From positions 1,674,001-1,738,000 of the forward strand of contig NZ_CP134500.1 of NCBI RefSeq assembly GCF_031760065.1: a stretch of 64,000 nt of DNA. The letters are read 5' to 3'. Shown in pieces: positions 5,603 through 9,500 of this stretch. The position numbers were made by a program, and so were the translations under genes. The notes below the pieces were generated by a model. It was not told where the DNA came from and did no database searches. It worked only from the letters and a program-made list of their open reading frames with translations. The stretch's first letter is position 1; each line of letters starts with the position of its first letter. This DNA is from Streptomyces durocortorensis (GTDB lineage Bacteria > Actinomycetota > Actinomycetes > Streptomycetales > Streptomycetaceae).

Positions 5603-6511
5603 TCAGGCCGCCTGCGACTCCGCCTGCGCCAGCAGCTCCGTGAGGTGGAGGCCGAAGCGGGCGTCGCAGGCGTGTGGCACTCCCGTGCGTACCGCTTCGG
5701 CCAGCGCGTCCACCGCTCCCCTGAACGCGGTCCGCGCGCCGTCCCAGCCCGGCATCTCGGCCGTCCCCCGCTCGCCCCGGAGCTCGATCTGCACGCCCGC
5801 CGCGCCGGGCGGGGCGCTCAGGCCGAGGGTCACCGTGCTGGAGGCGCCGGAAGCGTGGCGCAGGATTAGGTGGGTGGTGTCGGCGGGGCCGCGGGCGGCG
5901 GTAACCTCCGTGACCTCGCCCAGGACCGGGATGAGCACCGAGAGCGCGTGCGGGCCGACGTCCCACAGGCCGCCCTTTTCGCGCCGCCACGGGGACTCCG
6001 CGTACTCGCTGGTGGAGCCGGACGCGTAGAGCGAGCCGAGCCACTGCGCGCGGGCGGTGAACCAGCCGCCCGCCGCTGTCTGTTCGGCGATCCAGGCCGA
6101 CGTCTCCGGGGCGAAGCGCAGGGTGCAGAAGACCACCGAGGCGACCTCCGCCTCCGCCGCCGCCTCGGCCACCGCGCGGGCCCCCTCGACCGTCGTGGCC
6201 ACCGGCTTGTCCATCAGCAGGTGGCAGCCCGCCTCCGCCGCCCGGACGGCCAGCGGGGCCTGGACGTCCGGCGGCAGCGCGAAGGCGATCGCGTCGCTCG
6301 CCTCCAGCAGCGCGTCGATCCCCTCCTCACCCGTGTACGCCCGCGTCCCGTGGGCGGCCGCGAGGCCCTCCGCCGCCTCGGCCCGGCGGCCCCACATCCC
6401 GCTCAGCTCGACGCCGGGGTGGGCGGCGAGCGCGGGGGCCTGGGTGTTGCGCGCCCAGGGGCCGGTGCCGAGGAGACCGATACGCAGAGGAGTGGTGCCC
6501 GCAGTCGTCAT
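5603..6511 (-). CDS. Gfo/Idh/MocA-family NAD(P)-dependent oxidoreductase
   Basis: A 302-residue dehydrogenase. The N-terminal Rossmann fold has LRIGLLGTGPWARN (GxG) and the conserved MDKPVATT loop (EKP variant) that contacts nicotinamide. The C-terminal beta-sheet domain begins near residue 125, and GGLWDVGPHALSVLI carries the conserved Asp/His pair. Members oxidise or reduce sugars, inositols or related alcohols. No sugar transporter is adjacent, so the substrate is unknown. The ATG at 6511 starts two residues before the fold. A 13-bp G-rich tandem repeat begins 35 bp upstream, which is an unusual promoter context. Confidence 0.88.
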   Translation of the reverse strand: MTTAGTTPLRIGLLGTGPWARNTQAPALAAHPGVELSGMWGRRAEAAEGLAAAHGTRAYTGEEGIDALLEASDAIAFALPPDVQAPLAVRAAEAGCHLLMDKPVATTVEGARAVAEAAAEAEVASVVFCTLRFAPETSAWIAEQTAAGGWFTARAQWLGSLYASGSTSEYAESPWRREKGGLWDVGPHALSVLIPVLGEVTEVTAARGPADTTHLILRHASGASSTVTLGLSAPPGAAGVQIELRGERGTAEMPGWDGARTAFRGAVDALAEAVRTGVPHACDARFGLHLTELLAQAESQAA

Positions 6512-6545
6512 GGGTGCCAGTGTGCCGGGTGCGCGAAGGAGTCCT

Positions 6546-6658
6546 GGAAAGGAGCCCCGGAAAGGGGCCTGGAGCAGGGGCTTGAAGCGGGGCCTTGGAA
6601 CGGGGGCTTGGGGCGGGGGCTTGGGGCGGGGGCTTGGAACCGGGGCGCCTGGAAGTGG
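6546..6658. repeat. 13-bp G-rich tandem repeat with G-quadruplex potential
   Basis: About eight and a half copies of a degenerate 13-mer, GGRRCRGGGGCTT, start at 6546, 6559, 6571, 6584, 6597, 6610, 6623, 6636 and 6651. Copies at 6610 and 6623 are identical. The runs of four and five G on the plus strand could fold into G-quadruplexes. It fills the 305-bp divergent region between the oxidoreductase and the TROVE-like gene. Outside the repeat I see no clear -35/-10 pair in this gap. Confidence 0.75.
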
Positions 6659-6816
6659 TCGCGAATGCGGTGGCGCGGCACCCTCGTGTCCGGTTACGTT
6701 TCCCGGGCCGGCCGCGGGACTCCGGCTGCGACTTCCGAGATGTGCCTGTAAAGCGATGATTTCGTTGTTCGCGCCCCCATTCCCCGGCCGGCATCCACGT
6801 CCACCGGGGGAAGACC

Positions 6817-8364
6817 ATGCCTGCGTCCGAGACCTTCGCCGACCTCGTCGCCGCCGAGGACGTCCTGCTCTTCGTGAACGCGGCGATCACCGCGACCGGG
6901 CAGCGCGAGTTCCGCTCCGACGCCGTCGGCCAGCAGCTGTCGTTGGACTTCCTCCACACTTACGTACGGGTCAACTACCGGCGTGTCTATGCCTCTTCGC
7001 TGGCCCTGGACATCAACGACCACAACGCCGCCCGCATCGTACGCGAGCTCCTGGAGACGGCGGGCGAGGCGAGTGCGGAGGAGCGGCGCACCGAGGGGCG
7101 GCTCATCGCCGCCCGGCTGGCGCTGCTGCCGCCGCCGCGCGTCTACCGGCTCTTCGGCGAGCTGCGCCGGGCCGGGGTCAACAACCGGCGCACCCGGGCG
7201 ATCATGCGCGACTGGCTGGCGGCCCGGCCGGACCTGGGGCACGACGCGGTGAAGTACCGCAGCGGGCTGAAGTCGGCCGCCCGGCACATCCATCTGCGCT
7301 GCCCCGAAGGGACGGAGCCGCTCCCCGAAGTCGGGGCGTTCCTGTTCCGGCCCGGGCGGCTGCCGCGCTACGAGCACCGGCTGCTGGACGCCTGGCGGCG
7401 CGCCCACTACGAGCAGGGGGCCGTGGCCGAGCTGCCGTTCACCGTCGCGGAGGGGTTCGCGGACCGGCACGGGATGAAGCGCGAGGTGTTCCTGAAGCGG
7501 GCCGCGCCCCGGATGACCCGGCTGGAGCGCCTGCGCACGCAGGAGCAGCGGGTGGAGGGCGACCAGCAGCCGGACGTCGATCTGACCGTCATGCCGCTGA
7601 CCCGCCTGGCCCTGTACGTGCTCGCGCTCCCCTTCGAGCGGCGCGCCGCCCGGCGCGCGGAGCTGTCCGGTGCCCTGCGCACGGCCGCCCGCCGGGCCGC
7701 GGGCGGGCACGCGGGGACCTGGGGGCGTGTACACGCGGTGCTGGACGACAGCTTCTCCTCGTCCGGTTCGGGGCAGAAGCGGCGGCGGCCGCTGGCCGTC
7801 GCGCTGGCCTCCCACTACCTGCTGGAGGCGCTCGCGGCTCCCGGCGCCTACCGCGCGCTGTGGACCTCGGGCCGGGACGACGCCCTGCTCGTACGCCCAT
7901 GGGGGCCGACCCCGCTCGGGATGCGGATCCTGGACGCGCTGGAGCCCGGGCCGGGCGGCGGCGGTGCGGGCCGGCCCGCGAGCGCTGGTGCGGACCGGCC
8001 GGTCGATGCCGTTCCGGACCGGCTGGTCGACGCCGCTCCGGACCGGCTGGTGATCGTCTCGGACGGCTGGGACAACGCTCCGGCGGGCCTTGCGGGCGAG
8101 GTGCTGCGCGTGTGGCGGAGCCGGCTGGACCCGGCGCGCCGGACGGCCGTCGTGCACCTCAACCCCGTATACGACGCGGCCGGTTTCGACGTCCGGCGGC
8201 TCGCGGCGGGGGTTCCGACGGCCGGCATCCGGGATGCGGAGGATCTGCCCGCCCTGGTGGAGATCGCCCGGTTCACGGAGGGGCGGACCGGGGCGGCGGA
8301 GCTGCACGCCTATCTGGGCCGCCGGGTGGCCCGGTTCCTGGGAGAGAAGGAGACCGCGTCGTGA
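6817..8364 (+). CDS. Ro60/TROVE-like protein with C-terminal von Willebrand A domain
   Basis: A 515-residue protein. Residues 1-300 are alpha-helical with repeated short helices, including NNRRTRAIMRDWLAARP and KYRSGLKSAARH. Residues about 300-515 form a vWA domain with all MIDAS residues: D310-x-S312-x-S314, T365 in GPTPLG and D416-G417 in LVIVSDGWDN. Total length and order match bacterial Ro60 (Rsr), an RNA-binding ring that works with small Y RNAs and exoribonucleases in RNA quality control. The likeness of the helical half to TROVE is my reading, not a database match. A short repeat (PVDAVPDRLVDAAPDRL) lies before the last MIDAS strand. GGGGGAAGA precedes the ATG. The TGA overlaps the GTG of the next gene, so the two products probably act together. 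Confidence 0.65.
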   Translation: MPASETFADLVAAEDVLLFVNAAITATGQREFRSDAVGQQLSLDFLHTYVRVNYRRVYASSLALDINDHNAARIVRELLETAGEASAEERRTEGRLIAARLALLPPPRVYRLFGELRRAGVNNRRTRAIMRDWLAARPDLGHDAVKYRSGLKSAARHIHLRCPEGTEPLPEVGAFLFRPGRLPRYEHRLLDAWRRAHYEQGAVAELPFTVAEGFADRHGMKREVFLKRAAPRMTRLERLRTQEQRVEGDQQPDVDLTVMPLTRLALYVLALPFERRAARRAELSGALRTAARRAAGGHAGTWGRVHAVLDDSFSSSGSGQKRRRPLAVALASHYLLEALAAPGAYRALWTSGRDDALLVRPWGPTPLGMRILDALEPGPGGGGAGRPASAGADRPVDAVPDRLVDAAPDRLVIVSDGWDNAPAGLAGEVLRVWRSRLDPARRTAVVHLNPVYDAAGFDVRRLAAGVPTAGIRDAEDLPALVEIARFTEGRTGAAELHAYLGRRVARFLGEKETAS

Positions 8365-9500
8365 ACCGGCTGGAATTCACCGGGCTCACCACCCGGCCCT
8401 CCCAGGTGTGGGGAGGCGTCCGGCTCGTCCCGCTGGTGCGCGAGGCACCGGTGGAGGGGCTGCGGCTGCACCGGGAGGTGTACGAGGGGCTCGGCGCGGG
8501 GATCGTCGAGCTCGGACCCCGCAGCCACGACGTCTCGTACATTCCCCACGGGTTCGTCGCCGACTGGTCGGGCACCGATACCGCCGCGCCGGAGCCGGGC
8601 GGGCAGTCCGCCACGTACGGGACGCAGTTCGGCGGCCGGGACGCGCCGACGACCGTCCGCCTTCCCTCGCTCCCCCGCCACCGCATGGCCAAGCGGCGCC
8701 CCGGCGACCGGCTGCGGTTCCTGCCGCTCCACCTGGCTCTGGAGGGCTACCTCGCGCTGCACTTCGGCGGTCCGTCGACGGCCTGGGAGGAGTGGTCGCG
8801 GGCGGCCCTGCGCGACGGGCTCTCGCCGCGCGCCGAGGACGCGTACCTCGGGCGGTCGGTGCGCGGGCTCGGGGAAGCGCTGCGGATCTTCGAGATCCAC
8901 CCGGACCAGTGCGGGGTGATGGTGTACGCCTCCGACGCGCTCGCCGCCGCGTTCGTGGTGCCGCACCCGGAGGACTACCGGCTGCTCCACGCCTCGCTGG
9001 TGGAGGACCTGTACGGGGAAGTGGTGCACCAGTACGCGCTCTACGGGGCGCCCGTCCCGGAGTTCGGGGCGCGGCTCGGGGGCGGGGAGCACATCCGTAC
9101 GCTCGCCGATCTGCGGGCGGCCGCGCGGGGGCAGGAGCGCGCGTGGGAGGAGGCGCACGACAGCCTGTTCGCGCGGGAACTGCTGAACTCCTCGTACGGG
9201 TTCGACCGGGTCTACCGGATGGGGTCGTTCACGCTGTGGCGGTTCCTGCCGCCGTTCGTCCGGGACGGGAGCGGGCAGCACATCGGGGAGACGATCACCG
9301 ATCACCAGGGGCAGGTCGCCTACCTCAAGACGTTCCGGCTCTCCGACGCCCAGATCCGGCGCGGCCATCTGCTGCACACCCTGGCGGGCGCGGACTGGGA
9401 GCTGTCGCGGGCGGCCGCCGCGCTGGGGTCGAGCCGGGAGGAACTGGTGCGGCGAATCCGGGCGGCCGGAGTCGGGAACCTGCTCAAGGGCGACGTGTGA
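8361..9500 (+). CDS. Partner of the TROVE-like protein: unknown domain plus Fis-type helix-turn-helix
   Basis: A 379-residue protein starting at a GTG that overlaps the previous TGA by 4 bases, with GAGAAGGAG eight bases before it. The first 330 residues contain no motif I can name with confidence; they have features such as VRLVPLVREAP, a repeated aromatic/charged pattern and DQCGVMVYASDALAAAFVVPHPEDY. I suspect an ARPP-type domain (a family name I recall from Streptomyces annotations), but cannot verify it. The last 45 residues (RGHLLHTLAGADWELSRAAAALGSSREELVRRIRAAGV) match the Fis/NtrC C-terminal helix-turn-helix, with alanines and LG at the expected places. No AAA+ domain is present. It may bind DNA or structured RNA next to the vWA protein. 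Confidence 0.6.
   Translation: MNRLEFTGLTTRPSQVWGGVRLVPLVREAPVEGLRLHREVYEGLGAGIVELGPRSHDVSYIPHGFVADWSGTDTAAPEPGGQSATYGTQFGGRDAPTTVRLPSLPRHRMAKRRPGDRLRFLPLHLALEGYLALHFGGPSTAWEEWSRAALRDGLSPRAEDAYLGRSVRGLGEALRIFEIHPDQCGVMVYASDALAAAFVVPHPEDYRLLHASLVEDLYGEVVHQYALYGAPVPEFGARLGGGEHIRTLADLRAAARGQERAWEEAHDSLFARELLNSSYGFDRVYRMGSFTLWRFLPPFVRDGSGQHIGETITDHQGQVAYLKTFRLSDAQIRRGHLLHTLAGADWELSRAAAALGSSREELVRRIRAAGVGNLLKGDV

Follow-up and report, generated by a model that had tools for sequence, protein, structure and literature searches.

This study concerns a compact locus of two overlapping genes and an upstream RNA element in a 64,000-nucleotide stretch of the Streptomyces durocortorensis genome (assembly GCF_031760065.1, contig NZ_CP134500.1, positions 1,674,001 to 1,738,000 of the forward strand), which we call the window and whose own numbering is used below. 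Gene 1, named V here along with its protein, occupies 6817-8364 of the plus strand (ATG start, 515 aa) and follows a ribosome-binding-site-like GGGGGAAG on the same strand that was read by eye at 6806-6813. Gene 2 lies at 8361-9500, also on the plus strand (GTG start, 379 aa), and the two genes share the GTGA overlap that an earlier reading of this DNA, hereafter the original prediction, had described. The span of that prediction, 6817..9500, holds both genes and omits the third part of the locus, a putative Y-RNA-like structured RNA of 86 nt at 6707-6792 (plus strand), whose 3' end is 24 nt upstream of the V start codon. The original prediction had also suggested a search for Y-RNA-like transcripts near 6.5-9.6 kb, and it is in this interval that conservation and a covariance model, R1, place the candidate element.

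The original prediction had called V a Ro60/TROVE-like protein from its length and the order of its domains, and the predicted structure bears this out. In the AlphaFold2 model (predicted local distance difference test score, pLDDT, 81.6; predicted template modelling score, pTM, 0.81), a helical domain with the TROVE/Ro60 fold at residues ~7-298 is followed by a von Willebrand factor A (vWA) domain at residues ~303-507. The metal ion-dependent adhesion site (MIDAS) of the latter is complete, with D310, S312, S314, T365 and D416 at the positions claimed, and these residues (DxSxS...T...D) are invariant in 47 aligned sequences. Against the PDB, Foldseek returned only three matches at E <= 0.001, all of them Rsr/Ro60 entries; with a second aligner, VIA, the top eight rows were all TROVE/Ro60, with 398-405 aligned residues, compared with 183-189 for the next three rows, which were vWA-only. 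The model therefore appears to have the overall Ro60 fold, a helical TROVE domain and then a vWA domain. A ring of helical repeats, whose lack would have counted against the call, is not missing from the model in a comparison that addressed fold and not ring closure.

These matches, together with a phage 'Ro-like RNA binding protein' found among six viral matches of V at E <= 0.001, speak against the alternative that V is some other vWA scaffold that merely resembles TROVE, with an adjacent RNA unrelated to Ro60 biology, which we regard as quite improbable. By sequence V is distant. None of the 47 family members matches Pfam TROVE (PF05731), Pfam, NCBIfam and PADLOC give no match to V at E <= 1, and phmmer and profile searches against PDB sequences yielded only IWS1 (E 0.5), while 'TROVE domain-containing' is the UniRef name of at least two close relatives (P0016, P0025). 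Visual inspection picked out a KY...H motif common to V and canonical TROVE proteins, which carries no statistics and is not used as evidence. Overall, V looks like a divergent Ro60-type TROVE-vWA protein by its predicted fold. It also contains an in-frame tandem repeat of PDRLVDAA-type units (7963-8037, residues ~383-407), which is inserted into the vWA domain immediately ahead of the final MIDAS aspartate. The repeat is missing from the aligned relatives shown (every second row of the alignment), and a 98% relative outside that alignment (L011) has the same length as V with the repeat.

The protein encoded by gene 2, which the original prediction had left unrecognised, is in fact a member of the Pfam family ARPP-2 (PF22549). 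Residues 4-288 match the complete profile (positions 1-278 of 278) with E 4e-118 and 393.9 bits against a cut-off of 27. The Fis-like helix-turn-helix (HTH) that had been placed at its C-terminus (residues ~329-368) holds by predicted fold but falls below the Pfam HTH_8 cut-off by sequence (residues 336-367, 14.8 bits against 22); 13 of 45 ARPP-2 members have an HTH_8 match at E <= 0.1. In Foldseek the tail pairs with NtrC4, NtrX and Fis domains (probability 0.96-0.99, 0.8-1.1 A across 41-42 residues), albeit at E-values of only 0.7-1.4, and we take it to have the fold of a Fis/NtrC DNA-binding domain; outside the tail the model is of low confidence. Of 45 ARPP-2 relatives, 29 also match ARPP-1 (PF20208), at E 3e-4 in the best case; conversely, two ARPP-1 proteins match ARPP-2 weakly, so the two families are homologous. 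Pfam gives the title of ARPP-1 as 'ARG and Rhodanese-Phosphatase-superfamily-associated Protein domain', and we found no assigned function for ARPP proteins. The ARPP names reportedly come from Burroughs and Aravind in 2023. ARPP-1 genes were also seen in small-genome Actinomycetota (L115, L117).

The coupling of V and ARPP-2 was followed in 80 loci (L003-L082), the best 80 of 141, taken from named genomes. The two genes do stay together, and the original prediction would have fallen had they not: an ARPP-2 match lies directly 3' of V in 80/80 loci, which were fetched with gene 1 as the query. The 4-base overlap is exact in 69 of them, and several of the remaining 11 are failed automatic start calls. 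Distance matrices of the two proteins correlate with r 0.89 (74 of the 80 pairs, leaving out L012, L029, L033, L037, L071 and L081, where automatic start calling failed; the best of 500 permutations gave 0.10), a value that includes shared species ancestry. The association of V with ARPP-2 is beyond chance. In the genome of the window, a single 7.3-Mb contig, there is one match each for V and ARPP-2.

An oxidoreductase neighbour is common to 41 of the 80 loci and a glnII match was present in the fetched flank of 38; the 39 loci that have neither of these neighbours show that the unit occupies several genomic locations. No third widely shared gene was found beside V and ARPP-2 in the 39 loci, where other gene clusters, weak ones aside, occur in at most six loci each. 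We interpreted the weak clusters (65-123 bits, 9-24 loci), most of which coincide in position with the pair or the RNA, as frame shadows. Because the locations vary and no other gene is widely shared in the 39 loci, the V/ARPP-2 unit is portable. In one Streptomyces metagenome-assembled genome, Bin5.20, the module is on two contigs (L053, L059), which could be two copies or an assembly duplicate.

A DNA alignment of the region 5' of V contains a conserved block in both kinds of genomic location. The RNA element was found by nhmmer in 80/80 loci, and R1 scores 106 bits at 6694-6797 of the window. For its structure we used an alignment, A4, of 75 non-redundant copies out of 145, with 70 near-duplicates left out. 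RNAalifold predicted a long stem-loop of 23 pairs, to which one helix of 3 pairs was added by eye, giving 26 pairs in four helices. From the outside inwards, an 8-bp closing stem (6707-6714/6785-6792) leads to a bulged pyrimidine with nothing opposite (C6715; C in 70 and U in 5 of the 75 copies) and a 4-bp helix (6716-6719/6781-6784), all on the plus strand; an internal loop, a helix, a second internal loop and a further helix then lead to an apical hairpin with U-A, C-G or, in the Nostoc copies described below, A-U as its outer pair.

Over the 26 pairs, 97.9% of the 1950 alignment cells are paired, compared with 94.9% in shuffles. Changes on both sides were seen in 13 of the 26 pairs (shuffle mean 5.6) and in 66 cells (17.2 in shuffles), and 0/500 shuffles reached either value; in helix 1, 99.6% of cells are paired and 6 of 12 pairs changed on both sides. 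Sliding the structure by 1-3 columns left 2-8 pairs with changes on both sides. These counts come from an alignment made by sequence alone, from which the structure was also derived, and related copies are counted repeatedly in them. Folding of the window's copy by itself gave a z-score of -2.1. Because 1909 of the 1950 cells pair on the strand of V, 210 of them as G-U, compared with 1700 if the element is read from the other strand, the RNA is assigned to the strand of V.

The same data bear on whether the conserved block could instead act at the DNA level, as an operator bound by the Fis-type HTH of ARPP-2. The operon does encode an HTH protein, and the two arms of the closing stem form an inverted repeat. 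Nevertheless, the arms are ~70 nt apart, the stem letters covary so that pairing is kept while the loops stay fixed, and the G-U cells pair in RNA and are not Watson-Crick in DNA; we therefore consider an operator very improbable. Rfam 15 gave no match to the element above cut-off. Low-threshold matches near the locus (D12-methyl, MIMT1 and GlsR17, as well as MH_s36 with E 9.8) are below their cut-offs and were taken as chance. Three weak YrlA matches in the genome of the window, likewise below cut-off, overlap tRNA genes and were rejected, as 13 of 14 control genomes gave such matches too.

A -10-like box, TACGTT (6695-6700, plus strand), precedes the closing stem's first base by 6 nt. In 69 of the 75 copies the pattern TANNNT precedes the stem at a distance of 5-9 nt, and in 52 this distance is exactly 6 nt, compared with a mean of 2.1 and a maximum of 8 in a shuffled control; transcription may therefore start at the stem. 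The distance from the RNA to V, measured from ~5 nt beyond the stem and without a valid value for L037 and L081, is 4-56 nt in 68/80 loci and 65-111 nt in eight. Two loci are more widely spaced, L050 with 232 nt and L065 with 1419 nt; in the latter a same-strand open frame of ~1.1 kb (G+C content at third codon positions 0.92) stands between the RNA and V.

This arrangement raises the leading rival explanation, that the element is a cis-acting 5' leader to which V, ARPP-2 or a ligand binds, thereby adjusting how its own operon is transcribed or translated, and that it never exists as a free Y RNA. The RNA is co-oriented with V, present as a single copy and close to the V start in most loci, a ribosome-binding site follows it directly, and no terminator was found in a scan of 6500-6900. 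It is because the RNA usually ends just before the ribosome-binding site that this explanation stands, and we consider it possible, if rather unlikely. The intervening frame in L065 and the distance in L050 do not fit it easily, nor do the mutually pairing ends of the RNA, with a box that would put the start at the first base of the stem, as in Y RNAs. Furthermore, Y-like binding and autoregulation could both hold. The confidences that we attach to the rival explanations are not mutually exclusive.

In a sample of 150 Streptomyces genomes, V was found in 22 and ARPP-2 in 21, with 20 common to both. Some of these are short remnants (V alone in G025 and G057, ARPP-2 alone in G117, both matches in G115), and V extends over most of its length in 19 genomes, in one of them (G120) in two frames. 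R1 detects the RNA in 20 of the 150, in one copy each: all 19 genomes with near-full V have exactly one, and the other 131 contribute a single case, G117. In that genome (L137), where V has no match, a full-score RNA accompanies an ARPP-2 match of just 42 positions. A degraded RNA copy (27 bits) is beside the V remnant of G025, and in G120 (L100), where V passes into a second frame partway, the RNA is present with 74 bits.

Across 394 genomes of a class sample, the RNA was found in 18 with a subtype-I V and in 0/376 others. Searching a class sample of equal size for V gave 20 genomes, the 18 RNA-bearing ones among them; one of the other two, G641, belongs to a sister subtype described below, and G686 resembles a histidine kinase by eye and was rejected as a false match. 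In G782 (C7:204370-206834), V is in two pieces ~1.4 kb apart and the RNA is kept, which could reflect an insertion. When R1 was run on 98 loci, many of which had been used in building it, there was one match in each (98/98). A search for RNA copies away from V, with stricter filters and with 26 and 10 candidates scored per genome, found none in the 150 and 394 genomes except that of G117.

All three parts are also present in a second phylum. Among 72,556 plasmid records, V was found in three Nostoc plasmids (43-45% identity), the same three carry ARPP-2 (42-43% identity), and in 3/3 the RNA precedes V (R1 56-59 bits, E 4e-13 to 1.5e-12), although the DNA around it has a lower G+C content. Relative to the L003 copy, 23 of 26 RNA pairs are kept, five of them changed on both sides, and in the closing stem 8/8 pairs are kept with four changed on both sides, while long stretches of the loops are identical. 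With the Nostoc RNAs included, 25 diverse copies gave 10 pairs changed on both sides compared with 5.8 in shuffles (1/500 reaches this) and 46 such cells compared with 11.3 (0/500). DxSxS is kept in two of the Nostoc V proteins, and the HTH tail, judged by eye, in the Nostoc ARPP-2 proteins. Thus, all three parts are conserved across two phyla, Actinomycetota and Cyanobacteriota. Two of these plasmids (L258, L260) have XisH/XisI genes between V and ARPP-2, and V of L260 has an in-frame stop and is not annotated. A viral contig with the loop pattern (L261) is matched by neither the RNA model nor V and was put down to chance.

Such a distribution could be that of an anti-phage or conflict system, in which the ribonucleoprotein would sense RNA cleaved or modified in infection and ARPP-2 would be the effector. 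The patchy spread of near-full V in Streptomyces, the several genomic locations, the decayed copies in Streptomyces and the carriage on two Nostoc plasmids that are typed as conjugative all fit such a role. On the other hand, neither protein matches a PADLOC model at E <= 1, 50,697 phage records gave no match, and the 39 loci contain no conserved third gene, in a survey that was not aimed at defence genes as such. On balance we think a defence function unlikely.

Two further groups of loci help to place the module. The sister subtype is a distant relative of V in Nonomuraea, Actinomadura and Nocardia (L189:323-2592:-; L192-L196). In hhalign, with profiles that used 22 of 85 and 23 of 120 sequences after redundancy filtering, the sister protein matches V with 97.9% probability over 380 columns in local mode and 99.1% over 431 in global mode, and the helical parts alone with 58%; the sister subtype matches canonical TROVE with 92%, in the vWA region only. 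ARPP-1 is directly downstream of the sister gene in 5/5 intact loci, and two truncated loci do not have it. Pfam detected no HTH in the one ARPP-1 partner examined, so that the DNA-binding-type partner of the original prediction is correct here and not general, and the coupling of a V-type protein with an ARPP protein is therefore independent of the HTH.

Canonical TROVE genes of Streptomyces, for their part, have a different upstream closing-stem element, CCTCCCGGTGCG...TGATCTCGGGAGG, in 18 of 30 loci, a count that uses a pattern drawn from these same loci (L138-L167; e.g. L156:428-498, oriented strand). In 20 loci scanned with Rfam, no match to this element reached the cut-offs, and several canonical loci have tRNA-like stretches nearby. 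We regard these elements as candidate Y RNAs of ordinary Ro60. Given an RNA upstream of canonical TROVE, an RNA beside a Ro60-type gene is to be expected of a working Ro60 system. A canonical TROVE gene is present in 80 of the 150 Streptomyces genomes, and none was found at E <= 10 in the genome of the window.

Taken together, the stem-bulge structure, the -10-like box, the steady association with a Ro60-fold protein and the fixed loops suggest that the element is a Y-like RNA, and since the three-part set is found on cyanobacterial plasmids as well, it looks like a variant of the Ro60 machine. Our preferred reading, which we hold with moderate confidence, is that the module is a self-contained, three-part Ro60-type ribonucleoprotein consisting of a TROVE-vWA protein, its own Y-like RNA and an ARPP-2-HTH protein. 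Its role would probably be in RNA surveillance or RNA-end processing. More tentatively, and with rather less than even confidence, we propose that it represents a third class of Ro60 ribonucleoproteins, spread across Actinomycetota and Cyanobacteriota, in which a stem-bulge RNA of a new family links the TROVE ring, divergent in sequence, to ARPP-2-HTH in the place of PNPase or RtcB. The result would be a machine scaffolded by RNA that recognises abnormal RNA ends and processes them chemically.

In the mechanism we envisage, the -10-like box would start transcription at the first base of the 86-nt RNA, and the transcript would continue into both overlapping genes. The RNA would serve as the Y RNA of the divergent TROVE-vWA protein. 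By analogy to its vertebrate counterpart, it would dock against the ring's outer surface with its closing stem and bulged pyrimidine, and the hole of the ring would take single-stranded ends of damaged or misfolded RNA, as with Ro60. The conserved inner loops may hold or present the ARPP-2 protein, which would thus be brought in by the RNA where other systems have PNPase or RtcB. To judge by the family name, with its ARG and rhodanese-phosphatase partners, ARPP-2 could process or sense an RNA end or an ADP-ribose-type group, and the Fis-type HTH may bind nucleic acid, either to regulate the operon by feedback or as a component of the ribonucleoprotein.

Several observations weigh against this three-part ribonucleoprotein. 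The superpositions of V on Ro60 are loose (Foldseek TM 0.42-0.49), part of the structural score comes from the vWA domain, and hhalign, with alignments of low diversity, gave no significant match between the V helical domain and canonical TROVE (probability 0.2%). The ARPP-2 protein model is weak, with a pLDDT of 65. As for the RNA, no Rfam Y_RNA or YrlA match exceeds the cut-off, an internal loop replaces the 3-nt bulge that lies opposite the bulged C in vertebrate Y RNA, three of the 26 pairs are lost in the Nostoc copies, only single copies occur in both genome samples, and none was found upstream of the sister subtype in the five intact loci. The scan of 6500-6900 revealed neither a two-hexamer sigma-70 promoter nor an intrinsic terminator, and because the RNA ends 24 nt before V with no terminator, it may exist solely as a 5' leader.

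The biology of Ro60 and Y RNAs has long been puzzling, and a 2020 paper says that the functions of bacterial Rsr and Y RNAs had until then been studied in Deinococcus only (PMC7790460). From titles and the beginnings of abstracts we recognised no report of a TROVE-ARPP-2 system and none of Streptomyces Y RNAs, in a search that covered mainly openly available literature, so that a prior mention is possible. Of two surveys of Streptomyces small RNAs, the accessible part of one has no mention of glnII or Ro60 (PMC3765725), and the terms searched are absent from that of the other (PMC11678152). A Ro60-type system whose protein and RNA are both missed by Pfam, NCBIfam and Rfam would widen the known range of the fold, and ARPP proteins gain a concrete candidate RNA partner. 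The system is compact, in three parts, and occurs in easily grown Streptomyces as well as on Nostoc plasmids; database records under the names S. griseus and S. venezuelae contain one or both of the proteins.

Compared with the families and systems already described, protein 2 is a clear ARPP-2 member but has a C-terminal Fis-type HTH outside the Pfam domain, and a conserved third gene is missing from the 39 loci, in a comparison that did not look for ARG and rhodanese-phosphatase genes by name. Canonical TROVE loci differ in the sequence of their upstream RNA (best R1 score 17.9 bits, E 0.08) and show no ARPP match in any of 30 fetched stretches, each of ~3.2 kb. The sister pair has the same gene order and a protein homologous to V over most of its length, whereas its partner is an ARPP-1 without HTH and no copy of the RNA was found.

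Known systems of Ro60/Rsr with Y RNA include RYPER and the rsr-yrlBA-rtcBA operons. In contrast to these, V has no sequence-level TROVE match, it is paired with ARPP-2-HTH rather than with PNPase, RtcB or RtcR, and the RNA has neither an Rfam match above cut-off nor a detected tRNA-like module. The vertebrate Ro60 site on Y RNA consists of a 7-bp helix with a single bulged C and a 3-nt bulge opposite; the element here has an 8-bp helix and a bulged pyrimidine, with an internal loop in place of the 3-nt bulge. Bacterial Y RNAs have been reported to be highly divergent from vertebrate ones (PMC4726728). According to PMC7790460, the lower stem of a Y RNA is formed by the paired RNA ends, Ro60 and Y RNA genes are in one operon in some bacteria, and Rsr is tied to PNPase by Y RNA in Deinococcus. 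The element described here lies beside a Ro60-type gene, and its 5' and 3' ends would form such a lower stem. As in the Ro60/Rsr systems, then, the predicted fold of V is that of a TROVE ring and a vWA domain with MIDAS, and the adjacent RNA likewise has paired ends and a single bulged pyrimidine in its lower stem.

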